Below, one piece after another: positions 10,600 to 34,037 of a stretch of 64,000 nucleotides of DNA. The notes beneath the pieces were generated by a model, which was not told the origin of the DNA, did no database searches, and worked only from the letters and a program-made list of their open reading frames with translations. Each line of letters starts with the position of its first letter. Within the stretch, counting starts at the first letter, position 1. The translations under genes were made by a program, and so were the position numbers. This DNA comes from Pediococcus ethanolidurans (lineage in GTDB: Bacteria > Bacillota > Bacilli > Lactobacillales > Lactobacillaceae), in the NCBI RefSeq assembly GCF_001437405.1, contig NZ_JQBY01000012.1:1-64000 (forward strand), written 5' to 3'.

Positions 10600-12369
10600 T
10601 TGCAAATTGCAATTGTTCTAGTAACCTTGGCCGTTACATTTATTCTGATGGCGATGGAAATCACAACACCTAATGCCATTATTTTATGTGCGCTTGTTTT
10701 TTTGATGGTCATTGGAATCTTGTCTCCGGATGATGCTTTAGAAGGTTTTGCTAATGATGGTTTAGCTACGATTGGTCTAATGTATATCATCGCCTATTCG
10801 ATTGCCAAAAGTAATGTGATTACCCACTTCTTTGATCGTGTTTTGGGAAGTGGCAAATCAGAAATACGTTCCTTACTACGGTTACTCACGACGGTCAGTT
10901 TATTTTCACCGTTTATGAACAATACCCCTATTGTTTCAACGCTTACCCCAATGGTTCAAAAGTGGTGTAAGGAAAAGCATTTATCAATTTCAAAATTTTT
11001 AATTCCTTTATCTTACATCACAATTCTTAGCGGACTCATTACAGTGATTGGAACCTCAACTAATTTAGTTGCTCAAGGTTTGCTTTCTAAATATCATCTT
11101 CAGCAGTTTGGATTCTTTGATTTTGCAGTGATTGGAATTCCAATTACGGTGGTTGGTGGGTTGTACTTACTGACAATTGGTTATCGAATTTTACCAAATT
11201 ATAAAAATAGCAATGTGGATAGCGTTATTCAATCACCGAATGATTATCTTATTGAAATGTCAGTTGATGCGGATTTCCCATTTATAAATAAATCTGTTAG
11301 TAAAGCAGGTTTACGTAACTTAGAGCATGTTTTTCTTGTTGCTATTAATCGTGATGGCCAACCAATTGTACCGGTTAATGAGGATATGACGATAAAGTTA
11401 CATGACAAACTTTATTTTACCGGTTCAGTAAAAGAAATTAATGATTTGCTTCAAATTCCAGGGCTGCAACCAAGCACCGAAAAAATCGATATGGTTGATG
11501 TCACCAATGAACACGCACATATCGTTGAGTTATCCATTCCCGATAATTCAGCACTGGTAAATCAGACAGTTAAGTCATCTAACTTTCGTGACGTTTATGG
11601 TGGTGTAATTGTTGCCATTCATCGTGATTCGGCTAAGTTAAGCGGTCAAATTGGTCAAATTAGCTTAAAGGCCGGGGATGATCTGGTCGCCATTACCACT
11701 AATGAACCAGAACAGCTAGGATCAATGAAAGATTTACATGTTTTTAATGAGCGGTTAACTAAAACAAATAAAAAAAGCTATAAAGATTTCTTACCAGTGC
11801 TTTTGTTGGTTGTTGCTATTGTGATTTCAACGTTAGGAATTGCTGATCTTTTTGTTGCCTTGGCAGCAATTTGTGTCATTTTGTTTCTCACTAAATGCAT
11901 TACCGTTCAAGATGTGCCGCGGGCCGTTGATATGAATGTATTGTTCCTTGTGGCAAGTAGTTATGGACTTGGATTAGCTATGTCTAATGTTGGGGCGGAT
12001 AAGTTTATTGCCAAACAACTGACCTTGGTTACGGGGACGACAAATCCCATCTTGTATATGTTTTTATTGTATTTCATAACTAACTTTTTGACGGCACTTT
12101 TGTCAAATGCAGCAGCTCTTTCGTTAATGTTTCCGGTGATTGTGTCAGCGGCTAAATATATGGATTTACCGGTTATGATGTTGGCTATGGTAATTACGAT
12201 TGCGGCAACGGCCGACTTTTCGACCCCCATCGGTTATCAAACTAATTTAATTGTGTATGGACCGGGACACTATAAGTTTACAGATTATTTTAAGGTAGGA
12301 ATCCCCCTTAATATGATTTGTATGGTGATTTGTGTTTTTGTCACCTATTACGTTTATGTTGTTATGTAA
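10600..12369 (+). CDS. SLC13/DASS-type anion permease with two TrkA-C domains (probable sulfate importer)
   Basis: A 589-residue membrane protein. N- and C-terminal halves form the SLC13 (divalent anion:Na+ symporter) core, including FMNNTPIVSTLTPM and GTSTNLVAQG in the first half and SNAAALSLMFPV and TPIGYQTNLIVYGPG in the second; the SNT-type anion/Na+ motifs are visible as TNL in both. Between them (about 205-385) lie two TrkA-C-like domains with ligand-sensing folds. Bacterial relatives carry sulfate, tellurite or citrate. It heads a run containing ATP sulfurylase and APS kinase, so sulfate is the best guess. The start is a TTG at 10600: an in-frame TGA at 10585 excludes longer forms, and AAATGGAG is 16 bp upstream, longer than ideal. 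Confidence 0.88.
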   Translation: MQIAIVLVTLAVTFILMAMEITTPNAIILCALVFLMVIGILSPDDALEGFANDGLATIGLMYIIAYSIAKSNVITHFFDRVLGSGKSEIRSLLRLLTTVSLFSPFMNNTPIVSTLTPMVQKWCKEKHLSISKFLIPLSYITILSGLITVIGTSTNLVAQGLLSKYHLQQFGFFDFAVIGIPITVVGGLYLLTIGYRILPNYKNSNVDSVIQSPNDYLIEMSVDADFPFINKSVSKAGLRNLEHVFLVAINRDGQPIVPVNEDMTIKLHDKLYFTGSVKEINDLLQIPGLQPSTEKIDMVDVTNEHAHIVELSIPDNSALVNQTVKSSNFRDVYGGVIVAIHRDSAKLSGQIGQISLKAGDDLVAITTNEPEQLGSMKDLHVFNERLTKTNKKSYKDFLPVLLLVVAIVISTLGIADLFVALAAICVILFLTKCITVQDVPRAVDMNVLFLVASSYGLGLAMSNVGADKFIAKQLTLVTGTTNPILYMFLLYFITNFLTALLSNAAALSLMFPVIVSAAKYMDLPVMMLAMVITIAATADFSTPIGYQTNLIVYGPGHYKFTDYFKVGIPLNMICMVICVFVTYYVYVVM

Positions 12370-12419
12370 AAGCATTAGAAACGGTAACTAAAAATTAAAA
12401 AATAGATAGGAAGATGCAA

Positions 12420-13901
12420 ATGGCAATTCAATTTTTACAACGATTTTTCCCCAGTTTACGTTCTAAGCGTGCAGTTTTAGTGTTAGGAAGCGGACGTTCC
12501 GGAACGTCAGTTTTAACTAAATGTATTAACTTTATGGGCATTTCGTTGGGTACGGATAATTTGTTAGCACCCAGTAAACGCATTAATCCCAAAGGCTATT
12601 TTGAAAATAAAGATGTCATTAACTTTCATAAATCGCTGGGTGGAAAAATTCGCTATCGACCTGCGTTTAAAGGTTATTATGACAGTCCGAGAATTAAAAA
12701 AGATCGAACAACGTTGACTAGATATTTAACGAATAAGTTTCAAAAAGAACAGTATTTAGTTATTAAGGATCCACGAATGAACGATTACATTGAGTTATGG
12801 CAACATGTATTAGCGGATGTGAAAGTAAAACCCGCTGAAATTATTCTAATTCGAAATCCGCTTGATGTTGTGGCCTCAAATTCAAGAGCCTGGCATCGAA
12901 ACAAAGTGCTTGCTTTGCGACAATGGCAAGTTCGGACATTACTTTCCTTGCGTGATACCAAGGGACATCCGCGATTGGTCGTTAGTTATGAAGATTTATT
13001 TCATAAAACAATGCCAACCTTACATCGAATTTCAACCCAGTTAGACTTGCCATGGCCGAAAGATGAACAAGCATTAGAAGCCAAAATTGATGGTTTTATT
13101 GATCCAGCACTTCAAAAAAGTGACAGTGGTGAAAGTTTGGAAGAGTTTAAAAACGAGAAAGAGCTTGAAGATGATGTTAAGAAACTTTATTTATTAGGCG
13201 TTAAGGCGGCAAATGATGATGACTTTTTAACTTCGGATGACTTTGATCACCAAATTAATGAGCTAACGGATCGTTATGTTAAAAAGTACGGATCTTTATA
13301 TCGTGATTTTAATGTCAAAATCAAGAGTAAAACTGTTTTTGTTTACGGCTCGAATACAACGCAAATCAATGCGGTTAATGCATTATTGAAACAACAAGAC
13401 GTTCAAATGGATGATGAGCAGACGAACCGAATGCATAAGCTATTGATGGCAGTTAAACAAAAACGAAGTAACGATCAGCAAATGTCTAATAATTATCCTA
13501 ATGATTATGATTATTTAGAATTAAAGGAAAATTTGAATAATTATATTCGGCATGCCGCCAAAACAAAACCGCTGTGGGGAATTGGCGATGCACTGGATAG
13601 TGAACTCGTTGAAATGTTGTTGACAGTTAGTGAAGAGATGAATTTAGATACACGTAATATTTTAATTTTAGATGATGAAGCAATGACAAAAGATGAAGGC
13701 AAGAAAGAAGAGCTAGCACAAGCTTATCAAAAGGTTCTAAAACGGATTAATAAGCATCCACATTTAATTGTGTTGGCGTCAACATTAGCCAAACCTGAAA
13801 CGAAACAGCAAATAACCAAGTTTATTGAAGCTGACAATGACCCCGACCAGCTTCTAAATTATCAACATGAAGTCGCCAAAGAAATTGCCCAGTTGCAGTA
13901 A
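12420..13901 (+). CDS. PAPS-type sulfotransferase with degenerate second domain
   Basis: A 493-residue cytoplasmic P-loop protein with no signal peptide. The N-terminal domain (about 15-230) has the two PAPS signatures: the 5'-phosphosulfate loop [12 protein letters not shown] (21-32) and the 3'-phosphate motif [12 protein letters not shown] (142-153, Arg145 and Ser153), plus IKDPR at 115-119. It should transfer sulfate from PAPS to an unknown hydroxyl or amine. Residues about 303-493 seem to repeat the layout without the catalytic residues: [10 protein letters not shown] (306), [10 protein letters not shown] (386), [10 protein letters not shown] (414) and [10 protein letters not shown] (446) parallel [10 protein letters not shown] (19), [10 protein letters not shown] (114), [10 protein letters not shown] (141) and [10 protein letters not shown] (183). 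Neighbours make and recycle the cofactor. The ATG at 12420 has better ribosome-site spacing than that at 12414. Confidence 0.85.
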
Positions 13902-13945
13902 AGCAGGTAATGGTATTAACAACAAAAATAGAATGGAGAAAAAAT

Positions 13946-15100
13946 ATGGATAAAATTTATGGAATCACACCTCATGGTGGAAAATTAGTCAATTTAAAGG
14001 ATCTATCTACAAAAGCAACTGCGAAAGCTGAAAACTTACCTAAGTTAACAATAAATAATTGGAACATTTCTGATTTAGAATTACTGGCAATTGGTGGCTT
14101 TAGTCCGCTAGAAGGTTTCATGTCAAAAGCTGATTATGATGCAGTAGTCAACACCATGCATTTAACGAGTGGTGTGGTATGGAGTATTCCAATTACACTT
14201 CCCGTTTCAAAGGAAAATGCGGCTAAGATTCAACTTAACGAAAAAATTGCCTTAGTAGATGCAAACGGAACGATTTATGGCACGATGGTCGTAACTGATA
14301 AGTATCAGCCTGACAAAAAAGTAGAAGCACAAAAAGTTTATGGTACAACGGAGGAAGCCCATCCTGGTGTTAAAAAAATGTACGATACTGGAGATATTTA
14401 TTTAGGTGGTCCGATTAAATTGTTAAAAATGCCATCTCATGGTGATTTTAGTGATTATTACATGGAACCAATTGAAACACGTAAAATGTTTCATGATTTG
14501 GGATGGAAGACGATTGTCGGTTTCCAGACACGTAATCCCATTCATCGAGCTCACGAGTTTATTCAAAAGACAGCTCTTGAGAGTGTCGACGGCCTATTAT
14601 TAAATCCACTTGTAGGTGAAACAAAAGCCGATGATATCCCTGCTGATGTGCGAATGAAAAGTTATCAAGAAATTTTACGTTACTATTATCCAAAAGATCG
14701 CGTTCGACTAGTCATTTATCCTGCCGCGATGCGTTATGCTGGGCCTCGTGAAGCGGTATTGCATGCAATTGTGCGTAAAAATTATGGCTGTACCCATTTT
14801 ATTGTCGGAAGAGATCATGCCGGGGTTGGTGATTATTATGGTACTTATGAGGCTCAAGAATTGATTACCTCCGTCGAAAGCGAAATGGGGATGCAATTCT
14901 TCAAGTTTGAGAACTCATTTTACTGTAAAAAATGCGGTTCAATGGCAACAGGGAAAACCTGTCCTCATGGTGCCGAAGATCACATTTCATTGAGTGGAAC
15001 AAAAGTCCGGGCAATGTTAAAAGCAGGTATTGTGCCACCAAAAGAAGTTTCTCGCCCAGAAGTAGCCCGTGTATTAATTGAAGGCATGAAAAGAAAGTAG
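13946..15100 (+). CDS. sat: sulfate adenylyltransferase (ATP sulfurylase)
   Basis: A 384-residue enzyme making adenosine 5'-phosphosulfate (APS) and pyrophosphate from ATP and sulfate. Active-site motifs are [11 protein letters not shown] (194-204, the QTRNP and HxxH elements) and [12 protein letters not shown] near 289. A C-terminal [15 protein letters not shown] segment resembles the zinc-binding hairpin of bacterial-type Sat. Length equals that of B. subtilis-type Sat. The ATG at 13946 has GGAGAAAAAAT directly upstream, whereas the in-frame ATG at 13910 has no ribosome site. The gene follows the sulfotransferase by 44 bp and precedes cysC by 8 bp, so it is in one transcript. Confidence 0.97.
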
Positions 15101-15108
15101 AGGAACGG

Positions 15109-15711
15109 ATGAATAAATCAGAAAATATTACTTGGCAAAACACCAAAATTAGTAAACAAGATCGTCAGTCCTATTTTGGTCATAAAAGTGCCGTTCTTTG
15201 GTTTACTGGCTTATCTGGTTCTGGAAAATCAACGATTGCAGTTGAAGTTGAAAAACAATTATTTGAACATCATTTAAATACTTATGTTCTGGATGGTGAC
15301 AATATTCGTTTTGGCCTCAATAGTAATTTAGGTTTCTCAGCCAAAGACCGGGAAGAAAACATTCGCCGTATTGGTGAAGTTTCCAAACTATTTGTTGATG
15401 CTGGAACACTTACGTTGACGGCATTCATTTCTCCATATCGGGCCGATCGTGATCGCGTGCGTAATATTTTGGGAGACGGTGAGTTTATTGAAGTTTTTGT
15501 GGATACCCCGATTGAAGTATGTGAAAAACGAGATGTCAAACATCTTTATGAGAAGGCTAGACGTGGTGAGATTAAGGGCTTTACCGGGATTGATGCACCC
15601 TATGAAAGGCCACAAAATCCTGAAATCACAATTGATACCTCGACACAGTCATTGGCGACATCAGCACAGCAAATCATTGATTATTTAGTTGAACACAAAT
15701 ATATTAATTGA
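15109..15711 (+). CDS. cysC: adenylylsulfate (APS) kinase
   Basis: A 200-residue kinase that phosphorylates APS to PAPS, the universal sulfate donor. The Walker A loop GLSGSGKST is at 34-42, followed by [10 protein letters not shown], the conserved APS-binding element, and [29 protein letters not shown] and [15 protein letters not shown] match the family. Length is typical of stand-alone CysC. The start follows GAGGAACGG. It is 8 bp from sat. Because no PAPS or APS reductase is present in this window, the PAPS is likely used by the sulfotransferase two genes upstream. Confidence 0.97.
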
Positions 15712-15745: not shown

Positions 15746-16696
15746 ATGAATTCAAAAATTATGGCCCTAATTAAAGCACATCAACGAATTTTTATTTACC
15801 GTCACGTCAATCCAGATCCTGATGCGATTGGCAGTCAAGCTGGATTAGCGCGAATGTTGCGAATCTCGTTTCCAAAAAAACAAATTTTTGCAGTTGGTTC
15901 GCCCAGTTCATCACTTGCTTGGATAAGTACCGAAATGAGTTTAAAAAAATTACCTACTCCTGAAGATTTGGTCATTGTAGTCGATTGTGCCAACCTTGCG
16001 CGAATTGACGGCCCGATGCCTGTAAAACCGACCATTAAAATTGATCACCACCCAAACTTAGATCCCTATGCACAAATTAATTGGGTTCAAGATGGGACTT
16101 CTAGTTGCGCAGAATTAATTTATGAGTTGTATCAAACATACCGGTCGGAGCTTTCATTAGATTTGAAGACGGCTAGTAGTTTATATGCGGGGATAATAGG
16201 AGATACAGTCGGTTTTTCAACGGCGGATACAACTAGCCAGACTTTTATGACAGCAGCTGCCTTACGTCAATTAGGTGTAGATGTGGCAAGACTTAGTCAA
16301 CAAGTAACGGCTATTGATACCCGAACAAGTCAGTTGTATGGATTTGTGATGAGTAATGTTGCGGTGAATGCACATGGCCTGGGCTGTTTGGTGATTTCAC
16401 AAAACGTTTTAAAAAGTTTCGGTCTTAACTGGGGTGAAGAAGATCCTGTTGTGTCATTACCCGGTAAACTTGAAGACGTCAAAATGTGGTTAATGTTTAT
16501 TGAAAGCCCTGATAATAGATATCGAGTCCATTTACGTTCAAAATCAATTCCGGTGGATGGTTTAGCTCGCCAGTTTGCAGGAGGCGGTCACCCATTGGCA
16601 AGTGGCACGTATGTTAATGATCTTCAAGAAGTCGAAGCAATCATTCAGGCTGCTGACAAATTGTTGAATGCACAATCATCAGATGTTAGTGCGTAA
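15746..16696 (+). CDS. DHH/DHHA1 phosphoesterase, NrnA type (probable pAp phosphatase)
   Basis: A 316-residue cytoplasmic DHH-family phosphoesterase. Metal-binding motifs are present: HVNPDPDAIGS (20-30), VVDCAN, IDHHPN (DHH) and, in the DHHA1 part, GGGHPLASG near 285. NrnA enzymes of Firmicutes degrade nanoRNAs and are known to dephosphorylate 3'-phosphoadenosine-5'-phosphate (pAp). pAp is the by-product of PAPS-dependent sulfo-transfer and is toxic, so its place directly after sat-cysC suggests a dedicated pAp recycling role. That role is inferred from context. AAGGAG precedes the ATG with a somewhat long spacing. A second nrnA may exist elsewhere. Confidence 0.88.
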   Translation: MNSKIMALIKAHQRIFIYRHVNPDPDAIGSQAGLARMLRISFPKKQIFAVGSPSSSLAWISTEMSLKKLPTPEDLVIVVDCANLARIDGPMPVKPTIKIDHHPNLDPYAQINWVQDGTSSCAELIYELYQTYRSELSLDLKTASSLYAGIIGDTVGFSTADTTSQTFMTAAALRQLGVDVARLSQQVTAIDTRTSQLYGFVMSNVAVNAHGLGCLVISQNVLKSFGLNWGEEDPVVSLPGKLEDVKMWLMFIESPDNRYRVHLRSKSIPVDGLARQFAGGGHPLASGTYVNDLQEVEAIIQAADKLLNAQSSDVSA

Positions 16697-16756
16697 AAGC
16701 CATGCTGGTCTTGTTACTTAAACAAAATCAAAATTTGAATGAAGGGAAAGCGAGAT

Positions 16757-18496
16757 ATGCGTAAAAAAATAAAGTGGCTCATAGCTGTCATCGTGGCGTT
16801 TATAATAGTTGGTGCTGCTTATTACTATAAAACTTCCAAAACGAGTACAACTAGTCAAGTCACAACAAGTAAAGTACGCTCAGATAGTGCCGTTAAAAAA
16901 GATATTAATTCACGTCTCGTTTACAACGAAGTTAATTCTCAAAAGAGTATTACAAAAAGTCTGAAAAGCAAAGCAACTAGTGGCACATACACACTTAACA
17001 ATATTTATACCAAGTTAAATCCGTATAAAGTTTCACCACTAACTGCTGTAGCAATCTTTCATACCAGTAAGGCTGCAAAGGTTAGCTATACGGTAGTTGG
17101 AAAAACAAGCAAAACATCTATTACAAATACGGTTAATAAATATACTAAATCACATACACTTCAAATTTTAGGTTTGTATGCCGACTATAATAATACGGTA
17201 AAAATAAAAGTAACTTATAAAAATGGCACTTCGGTTACCAAAACAATTCGAATTCAAACCGCAAAGGTTCCTAGTTCGTTATCATCGATAAAAATTAATG
17301 TGACTAAAGCTAATAAAAAGAAAATGGAAACTGGTAAAGGAAATGCTAAATTAACGTTTATGGTCAGAACGACTATTTCTGGTAAAAAGCAATCCAAAAA
17401 TTACTCGTTTGGAATTGATGCGGATGGTGCAATTCGTTGGTACACAACACGTCCAACATCGCATATCTTTAAACAACTGAGTGATGGTAATTTGTTGATT
17501 TGGACGAAATCGAAGGCCTCGAATTCCTACTTTAACGAGTTGGTTGAAATGAATTATGAAGGTAAAGTAACCAGAACGTATCGTTTGAACCATAAAGCTT
17601 TGGGCAAAGCGAAGGGATCTAAAAAGCAAAATCATAATCAGATTCATCATGATGTCACTGAGTTGCCCAATCAAGATTTAATTGCCACGGTTTCTGATGG
17701 TGGTCGAACTTATGTGGAAGATACAATGATCGTGATTTCTCATAAAACAGGAAAAATTACTAAAGTTATTAATATGAAGAACATTTTGCCAAGCAAATTC
17801 TACAGAGATTACACGGCAACCAAATCATCTAAATATATGGGTAAACGAGATTGGTTCCATGAAAATTCGGTTTACTATGATAAAACGGATAAGAGTTTGA
17901 TTATCTCTAGTCGTAATCAAAACTTAGTTATGAAGATTGATTATAAAACAGAGAAAATTAAGTGGATTCTTTCTGGTAAAAAACGTTCTGCTTGGCCAAA
18001 ATCATACCGTAAATATTTGCTAAAAGCTTCTGGTAAAATTGCATGGCCAGGTGGGCAACATGCTGCTATTGTAGCTCCTAATTCGTTAGGAAAGAAAAAT
18101 TCATTAAATCTACTGATTTTTAATAATAATGTTGCAGTTGGGGACACTAAAAAATCGCTTGCTAACTCTTCTGGGAAATATTCAGAAGGGGTTGAGTATA
18201 AGATTAATGAAAAGAATATGACGATTAAACAAGTGGACAGTTTTGGAAAATCACTTGGTAGTAAAAACTTTGCGAATATTATTGGTTCTAATCGCTATCT
18301 AAGCTCGACGAATCGTTTGATTGATTTTGGGTGGTTAGATAATGGTGATGCGGCTAACGTGATTGAATATGACGCCAAGACTAACAAACAAATCTTCAAC
18401 GTCAAGTTAACCAACCTTGGTAGTGGCGGTTACGTCTATCGAGCAGAACGCTTCTCATTGTTCCCAACTAAACATAGTTATGGAACGAATGAGTAG
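16757..18496 (+). CDS. membrane-anchored arylsulfate sulfotransferase (ASST family)
   Basis: A 579-residue, Lys/Ser/Thr-rich, cysteine-free protein with an N-terminal signal-anchor (about 5-25) followed by a long extracellular part. Residues about 70-170 look like the beta-sandwich N-terminal domain of ASSTs; the rest is the beta-propeller. Candidate active-site residues are His298 (QIHHDV), His368 (WFHENS), Arg386 (SSRNQ) and His435 (GGQHAA), in the same order as, and with spacing close to, the catalytic set I recall for E. coli AssT (His252, His356, Arg374, His436). ASSTs move sulfate between phenolic groups without PAPS, so its place after a PAPS-making run is unusual. The ATG at 16757 has a better-spaced AAGGGA than the ATG at 16739. 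Confidence 0.82.
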   Translation: MRKKIKWLIAVIVAFIIVGAAYYYKTSKTSTTSQVTTSKVRSDSAVKKDINSRLVYNEVNSQKSITKSLKSKATSGTYTLNNIYTKLNPYKVSPLTAVAIFHTSKAAKVSYTVVGKTSKTSITNTVNKYTKSHTLQILGLYADYNNTVKIKVTYKNGTSVTKTIRIQTAKVPSSLSSIKINVTKANKKKMETGKGNAKLTFMVRTTISGKKQSKNYSFGIDADGAIRWYTTRPTSHIFKQLSDGNLLIWTKSKASNSYFNELVEMNYEGKVTRTYRLNHKALGKAKGSKKQNHNQIHHDVTELPNQDLIATVSDGGRTYVEDTMIVISHKTGKITKVINMKNILPSKFYRDYTATKSSKYMGKRDWFHENSVYYDKTDKSLIISSRNQNLVMKIDYKTEKIKWILSGKKRSAWPKSYRKYLLKASGKIAWPGGQHAAIVAPNSLGKKNSLNLLIFNNNVAVGDTKKSLANSSGKYSEGVEYKINEKNMTIKQVDSFGKSLGSKNFANIIGSNRYLSSTNRLIDFGWLDNGDAANVIEYDAKTNKQIFNVKLTNLGSGGYVYRAERFSLFPTKHSYGTNE

Positions 18497-18778: not shown

Positions 18779-21496
18779 TTAATCCACTGATTTTAATGCC
18801 TCAAGCATATCAACACTCTGAATTTTATGATTCATCATGATCATAACAAGTAGTGAAAAGATGATTGTTAGGACTACGGAAATCAGAACATTAAGCCAGG
18901 TTAAACCAGGGGCCACCATTGCAGTTGCTGGTGGCAATAGTTCCATAATATAGGCGTGAAAAGCATAACCGATTCCGATACCGACAATAATTCCAGCACC
19001 AGTAAGAAGATTAGTTTCGCGGTAAATATACATTAATACTTCACGTGGATAGAACCCTAAAACTTTTAAGGTGGACAGTTCACGTACACGTTCACTAACG
19101 TTAATGTTGGTTAGTGTATACAAAACAACCAGTGACAGTAGGGAGGCACTTAGTACCAACACAATAATTAAGTTATTCAAATTATTTAAAATATTCGTGA
19201 TCGTGGTCTTAGCTTCCTGAGCCTGGATTGTTTCAACAGCAGCGTCATGATGGTTGAAGTTCGCTGCAAAAGAATTAATCTTTTTATTGGTTGCATGCTT
19301 CAATTTCACTAGATAAGCGTTATCAGGTGCTGATTGACCATAGACTTTTGCGTAATAGGCACGGTTCATATAAACATAGTGCCCAGCGTACATAGTTGTG
19401 ATGCCAGCAATCTTAATTTTATGGGCAGTGCCATCGCTATCATGAATTACGATATGATCGCCAACGGTCGCATTTTGTAATTTGGCTAGTTTTTCGGAAA
19501 CAATCGCACCAGAATTAGAAAAATGAAGCTTCTTGTCAGTTTTGTAATTACGTAGCTTAATATATTGATCTAATGTCGCTGTCTTAGTTGGCACCATTAG
19601 TGATATTTCCTCACGGGCATAATCGTTTTTTCTAGTCGCATAAACATCGGCAAAATAGGCACTAGCATGTTTTTGAATTTGATCAGAATTCGTTACTGCT
19701 TTTTTTGCCTTGGCAACATTAGCAGCAGTTGCATTAGGATTATAGGCAGTGATCAGATCATACTGACTAATTTGGCCAAATTGACGATCAACGATAGTAT
19801 TCAAAGAATCACGAATACCAAAACCGGTGATCATTAGTGCAGTAGCTCCGGCAACACCCACAACCGTCATCAACATTCGCCCTTTATAACGGAATAAATT
19901 ACGGGCAGTAACTTTATGTGAAAAGCTGAGATGCCGCCAAATTGGCGTAATTTTTTCCAATAAAATTCTTGAACCTTTTGCTGGTGGTTTGGGTAACATT
20001 AATTCAGCTGGAATTGTTTCTAGTGCTTGATGGGCTGCTAACCACGAAGCTAGTACGGTTGAGAAAAGAGCGATCAAGAAGGATAGGATAATATATCCAG
20101 GATGAAGTGATAATAATAAATTGGTAAAAGTAAAATTTGCTGTATAAGCTCGAAAAATAATTCGTGGTAAAGCAACTAAGCCCAGCAGACTACCCAGTAT
20201 TGTCCCAGTTAGTGCTGTGGAAATACTATAGACTAGGAATTCGCGCATGACTTCACCCTTAGAGTAGCCTAAAGCACGTAGGGTACCCATTTCAATACGC
20301 TTTTCTTCGACCATTCGTCTCATGGTTGTAAAACTGACTAAAATAGCAATTAGGAAAAAGAAAACGGGAAAGGATTTACCTAAGGCATCAATTCGTTGAG
20401 CATCCTCACCGTAGTTGTTATAACCAGCATTATAATCATTACGATTTTGAATGGTTAAACTAATATCGTTAAGTTGTTTTCTACTAGTTTTTGCAGCAGT
20501 GATTTTACTTTTGGTAGCGTTAAGTACCTTCCGTTGCGTTTTAATTTTTACTTTTTGTTTATCTAATCTAGTTTGTGCAGTTTGTAATTGTACGATTGCC
20601 CCCGTGTTATTAGCAGCTTTGGCGGCGGTTAGTTGCGTTGCTAATTTTTTTTGAGTTGTATTTAGTTTTGCAGAGGCTTTTTTCAAGGCCACAGTTCCGG
20701 TAGTTACCTTATTTGTTGCATTGTTAATATTTTCGTTAAGTGTTTTGTGTCGCGTTTTGATTCGTGCATCGTTATGTTTATTTAGTTTTTTTTGAAGTGA
20801 TTTAGCAATCTCGGCAGCCTTTTTTTCATATTTATCCGAATAAGCACTACCACTGACACCCTTAAAAGCAACACGGGCGACGTTTGGTTCTTTACTGGAA
20901 AATGCTTGTTTATTAACGTAGGCAAAGCCATATAGTGTACCACTACCGGCAGTGGTACTACCAACATTATCTTTCTTTAGATATTCGGTTGAGGTTGCGA
21001 AACCAACAATTTTGAACTTGGTCTGTTTAAGTGCCAATTTGTGATTATTTTTTGCTGCTTTGATGGTGATCGTTTCGTTTAACTTATATTGACCCCGTAG
21101 GCTGTCACTTAAGACAATTTGATGGCGATTAGCAGGCTTGTGACCTTTAGTTAGAACTAATTTTGATAGTGAGTGAGGTGTCGTTTCAACACGCAGGGCA
21201 TGATTTGATCCCTTGATCAGAACGTCTGTGGTATGACCAAATTCAATTGTTTTAAATTGGCTGCGCTTTTTTAGATATTGTTGATCCGCTTGATTCAGTG
21301 CGATTGTTGAGGTAATTTTTGCATCAGCAAGATTTTCTTTTTCATAATATTTTTGAGCGGTTTGTCGCATATTTGGTCCAGTGACATTTAAGCCGATCAG
21401 AACAAAAACACCAAGCATTAATAAAGCCGAAACTGATAAAAACCGGCCTATGGACATTTTAAATTCGCGTCTAATATTTTTATTAATTGTTTTCAT
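18779..21496 (-). CDS. ABC transporter permease, MacB/FtsX type with coiled-coil extracellular domain
   Basis: A 905-residue permease with one N-terminal TM (about 18-40) and two FtsX-type membrane blocks: three TMs near 375-510 and a C-terminal set near 770-890, with a further TM near 550. The first extracellular region contains a long Lys/Ala/Thr-rich coiled coil (about 225-330), seen in large efflux permeases of lactobacilli. The FtsX signatures LRALGYSKGEV and LKVLGFYPREV follow each block. It forms an exporter with the ATPase 10 bp upstream in the same transcript. A divergent TetR gene probably regulates it. Substrate unknown: peptide, lipid or antibiotic. Confidence 0.9.
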   Translation of the reverse strand: MKTINKNIRREFKMSIGRFLSVSALLMLGVFVLIGLNVTGPNMRQTAQKYYEKENLADAKITSTIALNQADQQYLKKRSQFKTIEFGHTTDVLIKGSNHALRVETTPHSLSKLVLTKGHKPANRHQIVLSDSLRGQYKLNETITIKAAKNNHKLALKQTKFKIVGFATSTEYLKKDNVGSTTAGSGTLYGFAYVNKQAFSSKEPNVARVAFKGVSGSAYSDKYEKKAAEIAKSLQKKLNKHNDARIKTRHKTLNENINNATNKVTTGTVALKKASAKLNTTQKKLATQLTAAKAANNTGAIVQLQTAQTRLDKQKVKIKTQRKVLNATKSKITAAKTSRKQLNDISLTIQNRNDYNAGYNNYGEDAQRIDALGKSFPVFFFLIAILVSFTTMRRMVEEKRIEMGTLRALGYSKGEVMREFLVYSISTALTGTILGSLLGLVALPRIIFRAYTANFTFTNLLLSLHPGYIILSFLIALFSTVLASWLAAHQALETIPAELMLPKPPAKGSRILLEKITPIWRHLSFSHKVTARNLFRYKGRMLMTVVGVAGATALMITGFGIRDSLNTIVDRQFGQISQYDLITAYNPNATAANVAKAKKAVTNSDQIQKHASAYFADVYATRKNDYAREEISLMVPTKTATLDQYIKLRNYKTDKKLHFSNSGAIVSEKLAKLQNATVGDHIVIHDSDGTAHKIKIAGITTMYAGHYVYMNRAYYAKVYGQSAPDNAYLVKLKHATNKKINSFAANFNHHDAAVETIQAQEAKTTITNILNNLNNLIIVLVLSASLLSLVVLYTLTNINVSERVRELSTLKVLGFYPREVLMYIYRETNLLTGAGIIVGIGIGYAFHAYIMELLPPATAMVAPGLTWLNVLISVVLTIIFSLLVMIMMNHKIQSVDMLEALKSVD

Positions 21497-21506
21497 CGTC
21501 TTGCCC

Positions 21507-22211
21507 CTACCATTCTAATTGTTCGACTGGCGTAGGCGCATCATTACGTGTATCAGATTTAACTTGTCCATCAGCAATTTCAATAACGTGGTTGGCCATC
21601 GGGCGAATCATACTGTTATGGGTCACGATAATAACGTTTTTATGGTATTTATGTGTGAAATCCTGAAAAAGTTGTAAAATTTTCTTTCCAGTTTTGTAAT
21701 CAAGTGCCCCAGTTGGCTCATCGGCAAGTAATAAATCGGGATTTTTTGCGATGGCACGTGCAATTGCTGCGCGTTGTTGTTCACCCCCAGATAGTTGTGC
21801 GGGAAAGTTTTGTAATCTGCTTTCAAGACCAACCGCCGTTAGAGCTTCAGCAGCATTCATGGCATTGTCGGCGATTTCTGAGGCTAGTTCGACATTCTCG
21901 ACTGTCGTCAAATTTTGAACTAAATTATAAAATTGAAAAACGAAGCCAATCTTTTTACGGCGATAGGTTGTTAATTCACGAGAATTTAGATCAGCTAATT
22001 CAGTACCATTAACATTAACTGATCCACTGGTAAGCTTATCCATCCCACCGAGAACATTAAGTAGGGTGGATTTTCCCGCACCAGATGCCCCGAGAATAAT
22101 GGTTAGTTCTCCCTGTTTGATTTCAAAACTGATATCTTCGTTTGCGGTAACTGCATGTGTACCTGTTCCGTAAGTTTTAAACTCATTCTTAACTGAAATA
22201 AAATTGGTCAT
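21507..22211 (-). CDS. ABC transporter ATP-binding protein, MacB/LolD type
   Basis: A 234-residue ATPase with Walker [11 protein letters not shown]-loop FVFQFYNLV, signature LSGGEQQR, Walker [13 protein letters not shown] and switch His in IIVTHN. It pairs with the FtsX-type permease 10 bp downstream. I set the start at the ATG whose codons begin [10 protein letters not shown]: a GGAGG ribosome site lies 7-8 bp before it, and the in-frame TTG further upstream overlaps that site. Probably a single two-gene operon transcribed away from the TetR gene. Confidence 0.95.
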
Positions 22212-22372
22212 TGTGTTTTCCTCCAAATCTCAATATAATAAGCACCGTGTTGATTATTTTACGTATTTATTAAACCATGGCACTGTCCAATTTCAATGTT
22301 CAAAAATAAGAAAAGTGTTGAGTAAATTGAAGTTATGCTAATAAACTACTTTGATTGTGGAAGAGGGAAATC

Positions 22373-22984
22373 ATGACTACACAGCAAGAACGACTTAGAC
22401 AAACGGAAACTGTAATTATCGAAGCTTTATTAAAAATTGGTAAAACTAAGCCACTTTCTCAAATTTCCATTAGTGATATCTCTAGGGCAAGTGGTATTAA
22501 TCGTGGTACTTTTTATCTACATTATTTAGATAAAAATGACTTAATTAATCAAATTACGACTCGGTTAGTGAATCAAATTCAGACAATTTTAGATAATGAA
22601 ATGAGTGGTGCGATGAATTATCGTTATTTTTCTGCCGATGAACCGTATCCAGTGATTCAGCACTTGATTGATGTCGTTGCAGATAATAAATTGTTATTGC
22701 GTTTTTTACTTGGTCCCAATGGCGATTCGGAATTTTATTTAACCATAACTAAGAAACTACAAAAAGCTATTTTACAAGAATTGAAACGAGTAAAGGGTAC
22801 GAATAGTTTTCGCCCGGATGTTCCAAGTAAGTACGCAATTAGATTGATTACGAATGTCATTTTGACGATTATTACAACATGGATTGAAGTACCAGATAAT
22901 TTATCTAAAGAAGCGGTTTGTCAACTGATTATGAAGGCACTTTATTTATCTCCGTATAATATGCTAGGAATAAATAACAAATGA
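22373..22984 (+). CDS. TetR/AcrR family regulator
   Basis: A 204-residue regulator with an N-terminal helix-turn-helix (about 25-50: ISISDISRASGINRGTFYLHYLDKNDLI), where FYLHY is the usual TetR helix-3 end, and a variable helical ligand domain. The ATG at 22373 has AGAGGGA at proper spacing, while the in-frame ATG at 22355 does not. It is divergent from the ABC exporter genes with about 160 bp between starts, an arrangement typical of a local repressor of an efflux pump. Target and ligand are inferred. Confidence 0.9.
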   Translation: MTTQQERLRQTETVIIEALLKIGKTKPLSQISISDISRASGINRGTFYLHYLDKNDLINQITTRLVNQIQTILDNEMSGAMNYRYFSADEPYPVIQHLIDVVADNKLLLRFLLGPNGDSEFYLTITKKLQKAILQELKRVKGTNSFRPDVPSKYAIRLITNVILTIITTWIEVPDNLSKEAVCQLIMKALYLSPYNMLGINNK

Positions 22985-23085: not shown

Positions 23086-24954
23086 TTAGGCATGTTTTCC
23101 CCAGTGAGGAATAACTTTGCCGTCTGGCGTATGGTCAGGATCTTCATTTTGAAGATTCTGATCATCGTCGTTTTTAAATTCATTTTCCAATTCATCGACA
23201 AAACGTTCGGTTGCATGACCATCGGGTTGATCGAAGAAATAATTGACAAATGAATCTAATTTTTGACGGTTCATTTGAGGCTCTTGAATTTTTTTAATTA
23301 ATTCATCTGTATTTTCGGCCAGTGTGCCTGGAATAAAGTCTAAGTAATTAAAATAGAAACTCCGCTTTTGCATATAGTCAGTTAAATCAGGGGCAAAGAA
23401 AATCATGGGACGTTTCAACAGGGCATATTCAAAACAAACTGAAGAATAATCCGTAATTAGTTCGTCCGCGATCATCAGTAGATCATTAATTTCACGATAA
23501 TCAGAAACGTCATGGAAAAAGTCGGCGTATTTATACGGAATGTTTGCTTCGTTTTGTACAAAGGGATGAATTTTCAATAAAAATACATAATCTTTGTGTA
23601 ATGCTTCATATATCTTATTGAAATTAATATCTTCAAACGGATAGTAAGCAGATTGTTGACCATTCCCACGGAAAGTTGGTGCAAACAAAATTACTTTCTT
23701 ACCTTTAATGAACGTCAATTCTTCTTGTAATTTTTGACGCACGTTAGCTTGATAAGTTTTATCAAAAAAGACATCAGTTCGTGGAATTCCAGTTGTGACA
23801 ATATTTTTTTCCGGGATATCGAAACCTTCTGCGTACTTATCAGCAACGTGTTTGGAAGAAACAAGTGCTTTGGTATAATTTTTGTGATTTAAGGAATCAA
23901 GCTTTGGACCGCCGGGCATGCCAACACGGCTGTAACCAAAAGTCTTAAAGGCACCTACCGCATGCCATACCTGAATTAAATCCGCATTGTGGCGGATAGT
24001 CAGTGGATAAATCATTGGATAAAAATCATCCAATAAAATATAGCGACTAGTCGCGAAGGCTTTGGCCAATACAAAAATTTCATGCCAAGACTTTTTGGCC
24101 TTGATACTAGGTTTTAAATAGAATGAGATCTTAAAATTTGTTTTTCGTTTTAACAACTCTTGATAGATAAATTCAAAATTGCCAGAAATACTGGTTCGAC
24201 TATCAGAAACAAACGAAATTTTATGACGATCTACGGGTAATAGATGATACCAATTATAAGCCATTTTCAAAACGCGGCGTTTTAAGCTGCGCATTACGGG
24301 ACTTTCCAAAACAAATTCAGTATCCAATTCATTTTCAAGAGGATTAATCTCACTAAGAATATTGGATCCGACTTCTAATGAATTAGCGGCAAAATTATAT
24401 TTAAAAATCAAACGATATTGCGTGTTCTTTTTGGCAGAATAACTAGTCATATTGGTAATATAGCTTAAATCATGTGCACAGTCTAAAATCTTTCCCACGG
24501 AAGTTCGTTCAATTAACCAACCGTCAGAAAGATACTGTTTTAACTGAATTTTGATTTCATACTGACCAGGTTCCAATGGTTTACCTTTATTGATTACTGA
24601 GAAGTTAGCAGTTCCTGTGTAACCGGCCATGGGGAAACGAGGATCTTCGCTTGTTTGATTTACAAGAGGAATCTCAATGTCATCAACGCCATCTTTTGCA
24701 AGAATCAGGCTTTTGACGATTTTTTCTTCATCTTTTTCCGGAAACTTTTCAAAGTAGGCAATACCAGAAATTGTAAAGTAGGCACCATTGAAATCAATCG
24801 AATTGACACGTCGTTTGATTAAAGAATCAATATTTTCCACCAAACGCGGGGAGTGGTAAGTCGGTTGAGTTTCTTCTGGAGTCACTGTATTTGCAGGTGT
24901 CGGATGTAGTATTCGATGCAGTTTATTTCTAATTCTTCTTAATAAATGTCTCAT
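23086..24954 (-). CDS. teichoic acid poly(ribitol/glycerol-phosphate) polymerase, TarL/TagF type
   Basis: A 622-residue CDP-polyol phosphotransferase. Residues about 40-210 form an N-terminal domain also seen in TarL-like proteins; residues about 250-600 are the CDP-glycerol glycerophosphotransferase fold with IQVWHAVGAFKTFGYSR and ITDYSSVCFEYALLKRP. No signal peptide; the basic N-terminus fits membrane association. Given tarI and tarJ in the same operon, CDP-ribitol is the likely substrate, giving the ribitol-phosphate polymer of wall teichoic acid. It overlaps the upstream gene by 4 bp. The highly charged C-terminal tail (about 595-622) is not part of the catalytic domain. Confidence 0.9.
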   Translation of the reverse strand: MRHLLRRIRNKLHRILHPTPANTVTPEETQPTYHSPRLVENIDSLIKRRVNSIDFNGAYFTISGIAYFEKFPEKDEEKIVKSLILAKDGVDDIEIPLVNQTSEDPRFPMAGYTGTANFSVINKGKPLEPGQYEIKIQLKQYLSDGWLIERTSVGKILDCAHDLSYITNMTSYSAKKNTQYRLIFKYNFAANSLEVGSNILSEINPLENELDTEFVLESPVMRSLKRRVLKMAYNWYHLLPVDRHKISFVSDSRTSISGNFEFIYQELLKRKTNFKISFYLKPSIKAKKSWHEIFVLAKAFATSRYILLDDFYPMIYPLTIRHNADLIQVWHAVGAFKTFGYSRVGMPGGPKLDSLNHKNYTKALVSSKHVADKYAEGFDIPEKNIVTTGIPRTDVFFDKTYQANVRQKLQEELTFIKGKKVILFAPTFRGNGQQSAYYPFEDINFNKIYEALHKDYVFLLKIHPFVQNEANIPYKYADFFHDVSDYREINDLLMIADELITDYSSVCFEYALLKRPMIFFAPDLTDYMQKRSFYFNYLDFIPGTLAENTDELIKKIQEPQMNRQKLDSFVNYFFDQPDGHATERFVDELENEFKNDDDQNLQNEDPDHTPDGKVIPHWGKHA

Positions 24955-26081
24955 ATTTTGTGTTCTCCATACCTATTAATTGATGTTAAAAATTGGTAGA
25001 CACGATCGCTATTATGACCATCCTGATTGGGAAAATTTTTGTGCTTTAATTGACGAACGTAGTCCAGATCGATTTGAGAAAACTTTTCATTAATGAATGT
25101 CATCATTTCAGGTGCTTTTTGAAAAAAAGGCGCGTTCAAATACTCAAAGTAATTTACATAAAATCCCTGTTTTTGCACATATTCCTGATAATCAGGTGTG
25201 AATAATAAAATAGGACGCTCAAAATAACTGAAATTAAGTAAAAGTGATGAATAATCAGTAATAAAAGCATCCATTGTGGGCATCATTGCTTTAACTCGTG
25301 CCGGGTCCTGAAATAAATGAATATTTTTAGGTAAATTGTGAAGATTTTCTTTCATATTAACATATGGATGAATGGAAATGTAGATTTCCCAATCTTCTTT
25401 CAACTCTGGAGCCGCTTTGATAAGTGCGGTGACAGCTGCCAATACTTTTTTTGAATCATTCTGACGATAAGTTGGTGAATACAGGATCTTTTTTGTATGC
25501 TTGGGAGTCAGTTTAATTTGCGTATGCGCAATGACATCAAGCATGGGTTCACCCAGTGGTAAAACATGATCTCGGTTAATATCAAAGGCATCGGCATAAG
25601 CTTGACGGTCTGCTGCAGTGTTAACGACAACCCAATCATAATTAGTATGAGGTTTGATGACACTATTTTGAGCATTTGGTAAACTTAAGCCAATTTTTTT
25701 CAGTGTACCAATGGCATGCCAAGTTTGAATGACAATGTTTTTGCGATGCTTTTTTAAAGAATACAAAGGGAAAAAATAATCATCAATGATGAACAAGTGA
25801 GATGTCGCAATGTAATAAACGGAAATTAAAGAATACCAAAAAAATAAAAGGCGACTCTTAGGTGAGCGATCATAGTGAAAACAAAATACTTTTAATTCAT
25901 AATCACCATTTTTCTCAAATGTTTCGTAAAGTTGTTTAAGATTATCTACTAACTGCGTATTACGCATGGTAGCAAAAGTTATGCGTTTCGGATGGGGACG
26001 AAACACGTAATAGCAAATTTGGTAACTGGTGTTATAAATGAATTTTAGGAATATTAATTTTAGTCGTTTTAAATCTCCCAA
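24951..26081 (-). CDS. CDP-polyol phosphotransferase, TarK/TarB-like
   Basis: A 376-residue protein with a single catalytic domain of the CDP-glycerol glycerophosphotransferase family; motifs IQTWHAIGTLKKIGLS and FITDYSSLLLNFSYFERP match those of the adjacent polymerase. It lacks the extra N-terminal domain of its 622-residue neighbour, so it could be a primase that adds the first polyol phosphate. It overlaps tarJ by 13 bp and the polymerase gene by 4 bp, indicating translational coupling. Assignment as TarK or TarB cannot be made by eye. Confidence 0.87.
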   Translation of the reverse strand: MGDLKRLKLIFLKFIYNTSYQICYYVFRPHPKRITFATMRNTQLVDNLKQLYETFEKNGDYELKVFCFHYDRSPKSRLLFFWYSLISVYYIATSHLFIIDDYFFPLYSLKKHRKNIVIQTWHAIGTLKKIGLSLPNAQNSVIKPHTNYDWVVVNTAADRQAYADAFDINRDHVLPLGEPMLDVIAHTQIKLTPKHTKKILYSPTYRQNDSKKVLAAVTALIKAAPELKEDWEIYISIHPYVNMKENLHNLPKNIHLFQDPARVKAMMPTMDAFITDYSSLLLNFSYFERPILLFTPDYQEYVQKQGFYVNYFEYLNAPFFQKAPEMMTFINEKFSQIDLDYVRQLKHKNFPNQDGHNSDRVYQFLTSINRYGEHKI

Positions 26082-27094
26082 CGCATCACACCCTTTCCCC
26101 AGGAGCTTGTACTATCTTTTTCAAAAAAGCTAACGACTTCTTTAATCGAACTTACTTTTTGGGTTTCACCAATTAAATTACACAAGCGTTCACGAGTTTT
26201 GCAATCCTTAGCTAAGATGTTGATAGCTCCTTCAAAATCTTCACGGCTACTACGACTTGAGCCTCTTAAGGTTAGACCGCGTTCGAGAACTAAACGGGTA
26301 TTAATTTCAATTGGATTTTCAGAAACGCCCAATAACATAATGGTGCCCATTGGTCTAATGTGGTTGATAATTTGATCAACGGCAATTTGACTACCAGAAC
26401 CACCGGTACATTCGAGTGCATGACTAACCTTTAATTCTGGGGGAATATCACTAACTAAATAGGTTTCATCTGCAAAAGAAAAATAGTCTAATTTATATTG
26501 ATGACGACCAAAAATAATTAGTTTACTTTCAGGGAAAAAGGATTTTGCCAGAGAAGCAATGATATAACCCAGATTGCCGTCACCCCAAATGCCAATAATA
26601 TCTTGATCGGCATCCATGGTTTCCTTTAAGTTGGTAAGTGCCTGAACGCCTACTGAGATCATTTCGGTGAAGGCAGCCATGTTAGGTTCAAAATCTTGAG
26701 GAATTTTAATCACGCGATCGTGACGTAAAAAAACATACTCCTGCATGAAACCATCATAGCCACTGGAACGAAAATGATTATTAGTGAGGTAATTTTCTTT
26801 AACAATGGGGCTTTGATGTGAAGGGGTATTGGGAATCATTGCCACAGTTTCGCCAGCAGAAAACTTATTTTGCGGATCATAGACGACTGTTCCGATAGCC
26901 TCATGAATTAAGGCCATGGGGAGCTTTTTGTTGAGAACTGCTTGAGAACGATTGCCAGAAAAGTACCGTTGATCTGCTTTACAAATTGATAAGTACGTTG
27001 GTCGAACAATAATTTCATTAGAAGTTAAATTTTCGTCAATGGTTTGAGATTCAAATTGGCGAGTACTGACTAACCGATAAACTTGGTTTAGCAT
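26069..27094 (-). CDS. tarJ: ribitol-5-phosphate 2-dehydrogenase (TarJ)
   Basis: A 341-residue zinc-type medium-chain dehydrogenase reducing ribulose 5-phosphate to ribitol 5-phosphate with NADPH, supplying TarI. It has Cys and His ligand positions in ICKADQRYFSGN and MALIHEAIGTV, a Rossmann element WGDGNLGYIIASLAKSF, and a conserved GGSGSQ. It lacks the four-cysteine structural zinc lobe common in alcohol dehydrogenases, which fits the TarJ subfamily. The ATG overlaps the tarI stop region by one base and the 3' end overlaps the next gene, so the four genes are one operon. Confidence 0.92.
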   Translation of the reverse strand: MLNQVYRLVSTRQFESQTIDENLTSNEIIVRPTYLSICKADQRYFSGNRSQAVLNKKLPMALIHEAIGTVVYDPQNKFSAGETVAMIPNTPSHQSPIVKENYLTNNHFRSSGYDGFMQEYVFLRHDRVIKIPQDFEPNMAAFTEMISVGVQALTNLKETMDADQDIIGIWGDGNLGYIIASLAKSFFPESKLIIFGRHQYKLDYFSFADETYLVSDIPPELKVSHALECTGGSGSQIAVDQIINHIRPMGTIMLLGVSENPIEINTRLVLERGLTLRGSSRSSREDFEGAINILAKDCKTRERLCNLIGETQKVSSIKEVVSFFEKDSTSSWGKGVMRWEI

Positions 27095-27801
27095 TAAATA
27101 ACCACCCTCTTTTCTACGATTGCGCGTGCTATTTTTAGATCATATGGTGTTGTGATTTTAATATTAGAAACTTCACCGCGAACAATATGCACTTCTTCAC
27201 CAGCGAGGAGGCAGATTTTACAAGAATCGGATAAAATTTCTTTTTGTTCAGTGGTCAGTTGATTGAATGCTTTTTTTAGTTTTTTGATGTTAAAACATTG
27301 TGGTGTCTGACCTTGATACATATACTCACGGATGGGAATTTCGTTTACTTGTTCATTTTCACCGCGAACAATCGTATCAATGGCCGGAACGACTGTATCA
27401 ACCGCCGTATGAGTCATGACCGCGTTAATATTGTCATCAATAATTCGTTGCGTGATAAAGGGACGAACGGCATCATGGGTCACGACCACGTCATCATCAT
27501 GGAGACCAAAAGTTTTTTCGATATAGGTGATTCCATTCATTAAAGTGTCATTTCGTTCGGATCCGCCGGTAATCACAACTACGCGGGAATCCTTTATAAA
27601 CTTGCTGATTAGATCTTTGGTATGTGTTAACCAGTCACTGGGACACACCACGATGATGGCATTAAAACGTTTTTCTAAAACGAATTTTTCAATTGTTTGA
27701 ATTAAAATTGGTTTGGAGCCAAGTGGTAAAAACTGCTTTGGCATGGCTGTGTTACCCATGCGGGTACCTTTACCGCCGGCTAGTATTTGTGCATATATCA
27801 T
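27094..27801 (-). CDS. tarI: D-ribitol-5-phosphate cytidylyltransferase (TarI)
   Basis: A 235-residue IspD/TarI-family nucleotidyltransferase that makes CDP-ribitol from CTP and ribitol 5-phosphate. The nucleotide loop is AGGKGTRMGNTAMPKQFL; VTHDAVRPFI and QTPQCFNI are family signatures. First gene of a four-gene operon, start preceded by GGAG. IspD is the main alternative, but the neighbouring ribitol-5-phosphate dehydrogenase decides for TarI. Confidence 0.95.
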   Translation of the reverse strand: MIYAQILAGGKGTRMGNTAMPKQFLPLGSKPILIQTIEKFVLEKRFNAIIVVCPSDWLTHTKDLISKFIKDSRVVVITGGSERNDTLMNGITYIEKTFGLHDDDVVVTHDAVRPFITQRIIDDNINAVMTHTAVDTVVPAIDTIVRGENEQVNEIPIREYMYQGQTPQCFNIKKLKKAFNQLTTEQKEILSDSCKICLLAGEEVHIVRGEVSNIKITTPYDLKIARAIVEKRVVI

Positions 27802-33444: not shown

Positions 33445-33453
33445 AGTGCTAGA

Positions 33454-34023: not shown

Positions 34024-34037
34024 ATTCTGTTTACCTC

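Follow-up and report, generated by a model that had tools for sequence, protein, structure and literature searches.

The window, a 64,000 nt stretch of Pediococcus ethanolidurans DNA, carries a gene for a two-domain sulfotransferase within a run of genes predicted to act in sulfate import, activation and transfer, and further downstream a putative ribitol teichoic acid cluster (Table 1). The ATG at 12420 (493 aa) is the more likely start of the sulfotransferase gene because its upstream AGGA is better spaced than that of the ATG at 12414. Residue numbers given here count from 12414 and exceed those of the first-pass annotation by 2. Whole-protein searches of 397 Lactobacillaceae genomes identified orthologues in 18, from 2 of 40 genera, three of these 18 genomes belonging to Pediococcus, the genus of the window, and 15 to Lactiplantibacillus, with L. 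plantarum among the named loci. All 18 members were included in the main alignment, which is the basis of every 18/18 motif count. Of the 217 columns in residues 19-235, 112 were invariant, as were 21 of 65 in residues 236-300 and 16 of 175 in residues 301-475.

Table 1. Features of the sulfotransferase locus and the teichoic acid cluster (window coordinates; residues counted from 12414).
Feature	Coordinates	Strand	Basis
DASS/CitMHS-type transporter with TrkA_C domains, probable sulfate importer	10600..12369	+	PF03600, PF00939, PF02080
Two-domain sulfotransferase gene	12414..13901	+	open ORF, 495 aa
N-terminal sulfotransferase domain, core residues 19-235 (model matches to ~264)	12468..13118	+	PF13469, fold, conservation
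5'-phosphosulfate (P-) loop GSGRSGTS, residues 25-32	12486..12509	+	invariant 18/18
GYFEN, residues 61-65	12594..12608	+	invariant 18/18, also in L029-L031
KDPR, residues 118-121	12765..12776	+	18/18
3'-phosphate-binding RNPxDVVxS, residues 147-155	12852..12878	+	R147 and S155 invariant 18/18; N148 replaced by H in 1
Inter-domain linker YGSLYRDFN, residues 292-300	13287..13313	+	G293 and LYRDFN invariant 18/18
Putative C-terminal pseudo-sulfotransferase domain, residues 301-495	13314..13898	+	models, folds, profiles, dN/dS
Degenerate P-loop equivalent, sole survivor Gly312	13332..13373	+	loop missing 18/18, G312 invariant
Helix 365-384 with invariant polar stripe K371, N375, R379, K383	13506..13565	+	18/18; helix from AlphaFold2
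KDPR equivalent WGIGD, residues 388-392	13575..13589	+	W388, G391 invariant; D392 in 17/18
RNP equivalent LDDE, residues 419-422	13668..13679	+	Asp421 invariant
ATP sulfurylase Sat (start probably 13946)	13910..15100	+	NF003166 562 bits, cut-off 387
APS kinase CysC	15109..15711	+	PF01583 and NF003013
DHH/DHHA1 NrnA-like protein, probable PAP phosphatase	15746..16696	+	PF01368, PF02272
Membrane-anchored extracytoplasmic arylsulfotransferase (ASST)	16739..18496	+	PF05935, PF17425; anchor by eye
TarL-like polyol-phosphate polymerase	23086..24954	-	PF04464; NF041713 404 bits, cut-off 1000
Teichoic acid glycero-/ribitol-phosphotransferase	24951..26081	-	PF04464
tarJ-like zinc dehydrogenase	26069..27094	-	PF08240/PF00107; NCBIfam matches all under cut-off; co-occurrence
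tarI, D-ribitol-5-phosphate cytidylyltransferase	27094..27801	-	NF001183 373.8 bits, cut-off 166

The N-terminal half of the window protein matched the Sulfotransfer_3 family (PF13469) at E 3e-4 and 21.5 bits, under the cut-off of 27, and all 18 orthologues matched it at E <= 0.1 (best 4.2e-9). Comparison of its AlphaFold2 model with the PDB aligned this half with the olefin synthase sulfotransferase domain 4gox (Z 14.3, rmsd 4.3, 204 residues) and with TPSTs (Z 13.3-13.9 overall), including TPST2 3ap3_A, on which model residues 14-264 covered chain residues 61-325 (Z 13.3, rmsd 4.2, 208 residues). The predicted strands (E) and helices (H) were E19-25, H28-40, H66-76, H92-111, E114-118, H126-135, E139-146, H149-160, H164-181, E187-191, H192-197 and H199-209. 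Glu64 of the GYFEN motif is a candidate catalytic base, by analogy with other sulfotransferases. Both the fold and the presence of the phosphosulfate and 3'-phosphate motifs place the N-terminal half among the PAPS-dependent sulfotransferases, and judging from its sequence and model this domain is very probably active.

The first-pass annotation had described a C-terminal half that repeats the layout of the N-terminal half in the same order and lacks its P-loop, KDPR and RNP motifs. Matching predicted strands and helices bore out the repeated layout, and the three motifs were missing from the C half in all 18 orthologues; the motifs quoted in that annotation were present in the translation of 12414-13901. 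The predicted architecture is one PAPS sulfotransferase domain with intact motifs followed by one degenerate look-alike domain. Its conserved polar residues K371, N375, R379 and K383 are spaced by four on a predicted helix and therefore lie on a common face, and W388, G391, E400, E408 and D421 are likewise invariant. In nine orthologue pairs dN was 1.7- to 5-fold higher in the C part than in the N part. The dN/dS ratios, which are rough since synonymous sites were near saturation in most of the nine pairs (dS >1 or not computable), were 0.010-0.038 for the N part (7/9 pairs computable) and 0.036-0.141 for the C part (5/9 computable). As the C half is under purifying selection, we rejected decay; on this evidence it is a maintained pseudo-domain that evolves faster than the N half.

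The same observations could also mean that the C domain is alive, with a new ligand site for its own cofactor, an acceptor or a regulator around K371/N375/R379/K383, W388, G391 and D421, residues that are among just 16 invariant columns of 175 in a half held by purifying selection. Their conservation may, however, be structural, and this explanation, which we consider improbable, overlaps with a non-catalytic pseudo-domain, the reading we prefer, the sole difference being whether chemistry occurs.

Neither the single sequence nor the profile of the C part gave a credible match to families in Pfam or NCBIfam or to PDB sequences. Pfam matches of this half at E 0.008-1 were scattered, with at most 2 of 11 members sharing one, and were taken as chance. 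Among 168 genomes of the order, the C domain was found in the window's own only, and in 348 Bacillota genomes the whole-protein alignment retrieved, besides the window's own, N-part matches only, in three of them. Viral contigs yielded no relative either with the whole-protein alignment or with the Desulfonema N domain.

AlphaFold2 models based on 11 related sequences were obtained for the whole protein (11-row alignment, mean pLDDT 76.6, pTM 0.72) and for the C domain alone (pLDDT 75.0, pTM 0.73). In the former the C half comprised E306-312, H315-327, H334-352, H365-384, E387-393, H397-408, E412-419, H428-445, E450-454 and H461-472; the main element missing relative to the N half was the helix after the RNP motif (149-160), which bears S155. 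The C-only model differed little in its elements, apart from an additional short helix at its residues 121-126 (residues 421-426 of the whole protein). When the C half alone was compared with the PDB by Foldseek, the three matches at E <= 0.001 were all TPSTs (8w5z_A 4.0e-5, 3ap1_B 4.5e-4, 3ap2_B 6.6e-4). Among viral models the matches at E <= 0.001 were two sulfotransferases, the first at 4.5e-4, and one AAA-domain protein. In VIA-align, the C half matched residues 61-327 of TPST2 3ap3_A (Z 10.0, rmsd 5.5, 171 residues), the same span as that taken by the N half. Thus, both halves aligned to sulfotransferases, as the duplication proposed in the first-pass annotation would have it.

These scores also leave room for a C domain of another origin, namely a separately derived P-loop kinase- or GTPase-type domain fused to a sulfotransferase and similar to it through the common P-loop class. 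In VIA-align, GPN GTPases, gluconate kinase, adenylate kinases, designed P-loop proteins and TPSTs were tied at Z 10-11, with GPN GTPase 7zhf at 11.3 (rmsd 4.6, 163 residues) and gluconate kinase 1ko5 at 10.5 (rmsd 4.5, 156 residues) ahead of TPST2, and kinases populated the Foldseek list from rank 5 on. Because kinases and GTPases tie with TPSTs in Z, the secure claim from the model is that of a P-loop-class fold. What sets the C half apart from a kinase-type domain is the Foldseek order, in which TPSTs took ranks 1-4, the aligned length, and the profile comparison. TPSTs aligned to the last residue (171-177 residues), whereas the kinases ended near model residue 172-181; kinase profiles scored 12.9-15.4 over pieces of 7-38 columns, where the extended sulfotransferase profiles reached 25-30 over 151 columns and the shallow one 21.0. 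Moreover, the Walker A motif GxxxxGK[ST] of P-loop kinases was missing from the C half of all 18 orthologues. A fused kinase or GTPase is unlikely on these grounds. By model and profiles the sulfotransferase type is favoured over the kinase type, though not proved, and a sulfotransferase-type fold, with Z scores tied with those of P-loop kinases, is likely for the C half.

The common origin of the two halves was addressed by profile alignment. With hhalign, the 18-row C profile scored 21.0 against the 18-row N profile (P 0.024, probability 2%), a value exceeded by 3 of 60 column shuffles, so that this sequence test of duplication was not significant; its register agreed with the positions that the first-pass annotation had assigned to the KDPR and RNP equivalents. 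Deeper profiles were tried after this shallow test had failed, and the hhalign probability stayed low with them, at 7-22%. Addition of three distant N-domain relatives raised the score to 29.7 (P 0.001) over 151 colinear columns, and a larger N profile including plasmid-borne and Bacillota relatives gave 25.2 over 151 columns (27.6 with match columns only), a value reached by none of 200 shuffles of the C profile (best 21.9). Overall, the extended sulfotransferase profiles scored 25.2-29.8 over 151 columns, and with five other sequences in place of the window protein as reference row the scores against the sulfotransferase profile were 24.1-25.4. The corresponding kinase values were 12.9 over 7 columns for adenylate kinase (30 rows), 14.0 over 12 columns for thymidylate kinase (30 rows) and 15.4 for the APS kinase of the cassette, whose kinship to the C half was rejected with 15 columns only; adenylate against thymidylate kinase, the positive control, scored 36.1. 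The highest background score, 22.1 over 57 columns, came from the unrelated profile of Sat and is a warning. Circular permutations of the C profile proved uninformative as a null, as they left the aligned stretch mostly whole. By eye, the alignments placed G312 opposite G25, K371 opposite R98, D392 opposite the D of KDPR and D420-D421 opposite R147-N148.

The deep profile and the shared TPST2 span speak for the internal duplication suggested in the first-pass annotation; the shallow profile test was not significant. Altogether, we consider that the C half probably shares its origin with the N half. A chance repeat, in a C half that is an unrelated alpha/beta domain or an artefact of a low-confidence model, would fit the lack of a family assignment by sequence, the few sequences behind the models and the non-significant shallow test. 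It is nonetheless very improbable, given that the whole-protein and C-only models have near-identical elements and that structural and extended-profile comparisons both point toward sulfotransferases.

The six cassette genes were found at 10 of 10 named orthologous loci, with the order sulfotransferase, Sat, CysC, NrnA-like, ASST on one strand; the DASS transporter precedes this run in Pediococcus (the window and L019) and follows it in nine Lactiplantibacillus loci. The transporter scored 139 bits against TIGR00785, under the cut-off of 198.6, and the NrnA-like protein 181 bits against NF053633 (cut-off 350), with both DHH and DHHA1 found. The ASST exceeded the cut-off of 24.2 with both its families (PF05935 281.8 bits, PF17425 81.2 bits). 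In L. plajomi (L027) the transporter at 16322-18115 is split into two ORFs of 404 and 187 aa by a frameshift or an assembly error, and L. modestisalitolerans (L028) carries on the reverse strand (7-1236), about 9 kb from the sulfotransferase, a second arylsulfotransferase gene 44% identical to that of the cassette. Promoter- and terminator-like sites between 10300 and 19000 were about as many as in shuffled sequences (26 vs 33.4 and 7 vs 6.3).

Strong APS kinase matches (E < 1e-67) occurred in 18 of the 397 genomes, exactly those with the sulfotransferase; at E <= 0.001 there were 85 genomes with any match, the other 67 at 3.3e-5 or weaker. The ASST was more widespread (122/397 Lactobacillaceae genomes). 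PAPS reductase and sulfite reductase (PF01507, PF01077) had no match in the window's genome, which is 96% complete. The locus hence combines PAPS synthesis, with Sat and CysC above their cut-offs, with no detected reductive branch. Since no such reductase was matched and APS kinase tracks the sulfotransferase in 18 of 18 genomes, PAPS is here most likely made for sulfonation.

Downstream of the cassette, the teichoic acid cluster (23086-27801) begins 4.6 kb beyond the ASST on the opposite strand. TarI is assigned above its cut-off, while the polymerase stays below the equivalog level and is named TarL-like; the tarJ-like gene, named by no family, is taken as ribitol-5-phosphate dehydrogenase from its position beside tarI. 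Between cassette and cluster lie, by eye, an FtsX-type ABC permease (905 aa) with its ATPase (18779-22226, reverse strand) and a divergent TetR-like regulator (22355-22984, forward strand); of this block, the named loci contained only one weak ATPase match (29%, L020). A run of folate genes, by eye dihydropteroate synthase-like, nucleotide pyrophosphatase-like, folylpolyglutamate synthase-like, GTP cyclohydrolase-like and HPPK-like, occupies 30401-34580 on the reverse strand.

The same four tar-type genes adjoin the cassette in 3 of the 10 named loci, downstream on the opposite strand in L019 and upstream on the same strand in L025 and L027; the run in L027 reads tarI, tarJ, two transferases, sulfotransferase, Sat, CysC, NrnA-like, ASST. 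A strong tarJ-like match (identity at least 61%) was present in all 18 cassette genomes as compared with 2 (G009, G216) of 13 congeners without the sulfotransferase, weak matches (20-26% identity) in 4 of these 13 being scored absent. These 13 were the cassette-free congeners at hand, nine from the genus of the window (including G003, 76% complete) and four Lactiplantibacillus from the ASST list. Fisher's exact test, which ignores relatedness, gave 9e-7 for all 31 genomes, and the two genera taken singly gave 0.018 and 0.004; the link could come from shared ancestry. In a family sample of 79, all 4 genomes that have the sulfotransferase, and 2 of the 75 that lack it, gave a tarJ-like match at E <= 1e-40. 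Of the 18 genomes, 5 (3/3 in the genus of the window) have the tarJ-like gene no more than 15 kb from the sulfotransferase; 8 have it at a distant site of the same contig, and in the remaining 5 the two are on different contigs. In one genome (G325:C39, 151900-153117) the match was in two pieces with a gap, which reflects real damage or a sequencing error. Furthermore, among 14 regions with plasmid-borne N-domain relatives and 300-base flanks, four were in polysaccharide settings, where the relative adjoined genes for UDP-galactopyranose mutase, a nucleotide sugar dehydrogenase or a glycosyltransferase, or was itself annotated as a glycosyltransferase; two had unrelated neighbours and the rest none.

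Ribitol teichoic acid is assembled in the cytosol, where PAPS is. We propose it as the polymer acceptor because of the tarJ-like co-occurrence and the polysaccharide neighbours of the plasmid-borne relatives; as the identity of the acceptor, ribitol wall teichoic acid is a tentative assignment, somewhat more doubtful than likely. The acceptor could instead be a small phenol of the plant niche, detoxified by sulfonation, with the ASST exchanging sulfate between phenols outside the cell. ASST enzymes use aryl sulfates, which we count in favour of such an acceptor. Expression data from L. plantarum C2 in pineapple juice point the same way: the cluster that includes lp_1378-lp_1381 was induced 5.3- to 16.9-fold, and lp_1385 was induced as well (PMC4895336). 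By gene content this is the same cassette. The passage describing the cluster mentions neither the sulfotransferase gene, nor its second domain, nor a teichoic acid link (PMC4895336). The polysaccharide gene settings of 4 of the 14 N-domain relatives argue against a phenol, as does the tracking of the ribitol teichoic acid gene by the cassette, and we rate it as rather unlikely. Among the literature matches listed, and in passages from PMC4895336, PMC6619386 and PMC12330582, neither this sulfotransferase nor tandem sulfotransferase domains in bacteria nor a sulfated teichoic acid of lactobacilli was described.

We propose that the cytosolic, PAPS-dependent sulfotransferase is part of a dedicated sulfonation cassette in which sulfate would be imported and converted to APS by Sat and to PAPS by CysC. 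The N domain would then transfer the sulfuryl group from PAPS to an acceptor, and the NrnA-like enzyme would remove the resulting PAP. The C half may have arisen by an old internal duplication or by fusion of a paralogue, followed by loss of PAPS binding. Without catalysing a reaction itself, it would most likely stand in as an internal pseudo-dimer partner and hold the acceptor, with the conserved K/N/R/K stripe as the putative contact surface. The acceptor itself would be a surface polymer of cytosolic synthesis, the most likely candidate being carrier lipid-linked wall teichoic acid of the poly(ribitol phosphate) type. An active sulfotransferase joined to a pseudo-sulfotransferase domain in a sulfonation cassette, with the acceptor left out of the claim, is the reading we favour with some confidence. 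We infer both that the C domain is dead and that it binds the acceptor; such a non-catalytic acceptor or partner role is plausible, if not quite probable. The most far-reaching version, in which some Pediococcus and Lactiplantibacillus species would sulfate their ribitol wall teichoic acid in the cytosol with PAPS supplied by the cassette, the pseudo-domain gripping the growing polymer and the ASST moving sulfate groups outside the membrane, is speculative and, taken whole, unlikely.

Beyond the first-pass annotation, the analysis adds the conservation and selection of the C half, the limits of the duplication claim, the PAPS cassette with its co-occurrence in 18 of 18 genomes, and the teichoic acid lead. 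Of these, the last is the most interesting as well as the least certain. The bacterium may sulfate its own wall, as hinted by the association of the cassette with teichoic acid genes, and this link makes the question of what is sulfated a testable one of wall chemistry in common fermentation bacteria. The cassette represents a complete PAPS pathway in some food lactobacilli, the reductive branch being undetected in the window's genome. If true, a sulfotransferase with a conserved but motif-less copy of its fold would lend itself well to the study of how acceptor choice is affected by a pseudo-domain.

Among known systems, TPST1/TPST2 and the olefin synthase sulfotransferase domain (4gox) share the fold of the window protein's N half and, to a lesser degree, that of its C half. 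TPSTs possess P-loop and 3'-phosphate motifs, as does the N half; enzymes of the TPST and 4gox types, however, have one sulfotransferase domain per chain and are not known to carry a degenerate second domain, and their identity to the window protein is low (about 11-21%). Bacterial sulfotransferases of the GMHRSGTS type (PF13469-like; for example L029-L031 and the plasmid-borne L039 and L040) are roughly 25-33% identical to the window protein, and L029-L031 share NPKGYFEN-like, KDPR and RNP motifs in the N domain. Two full sequences of this type end in coiled-coil or other C termini in place of the C pseudo-domain, which among the genomes searched belonged to the Pediococcus/Lactiplantibacillus orthologues only. 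In the Desulfonema relative (L029, 9992-11527) a coiled coil of RRGDYNxxLEQ-like units stands, by eye, where the second domain would be. Fused polymer sulfotransferases (8cd0_A and 1nst, both matched by the N half at Z 10.2) also combine a sulfotransferase domain with a second domain, but there the partner is an active deacetylase of another fold, whereas in the window protein it is a degenerate domain of the P-loop, and likely sulfotransferase, type.
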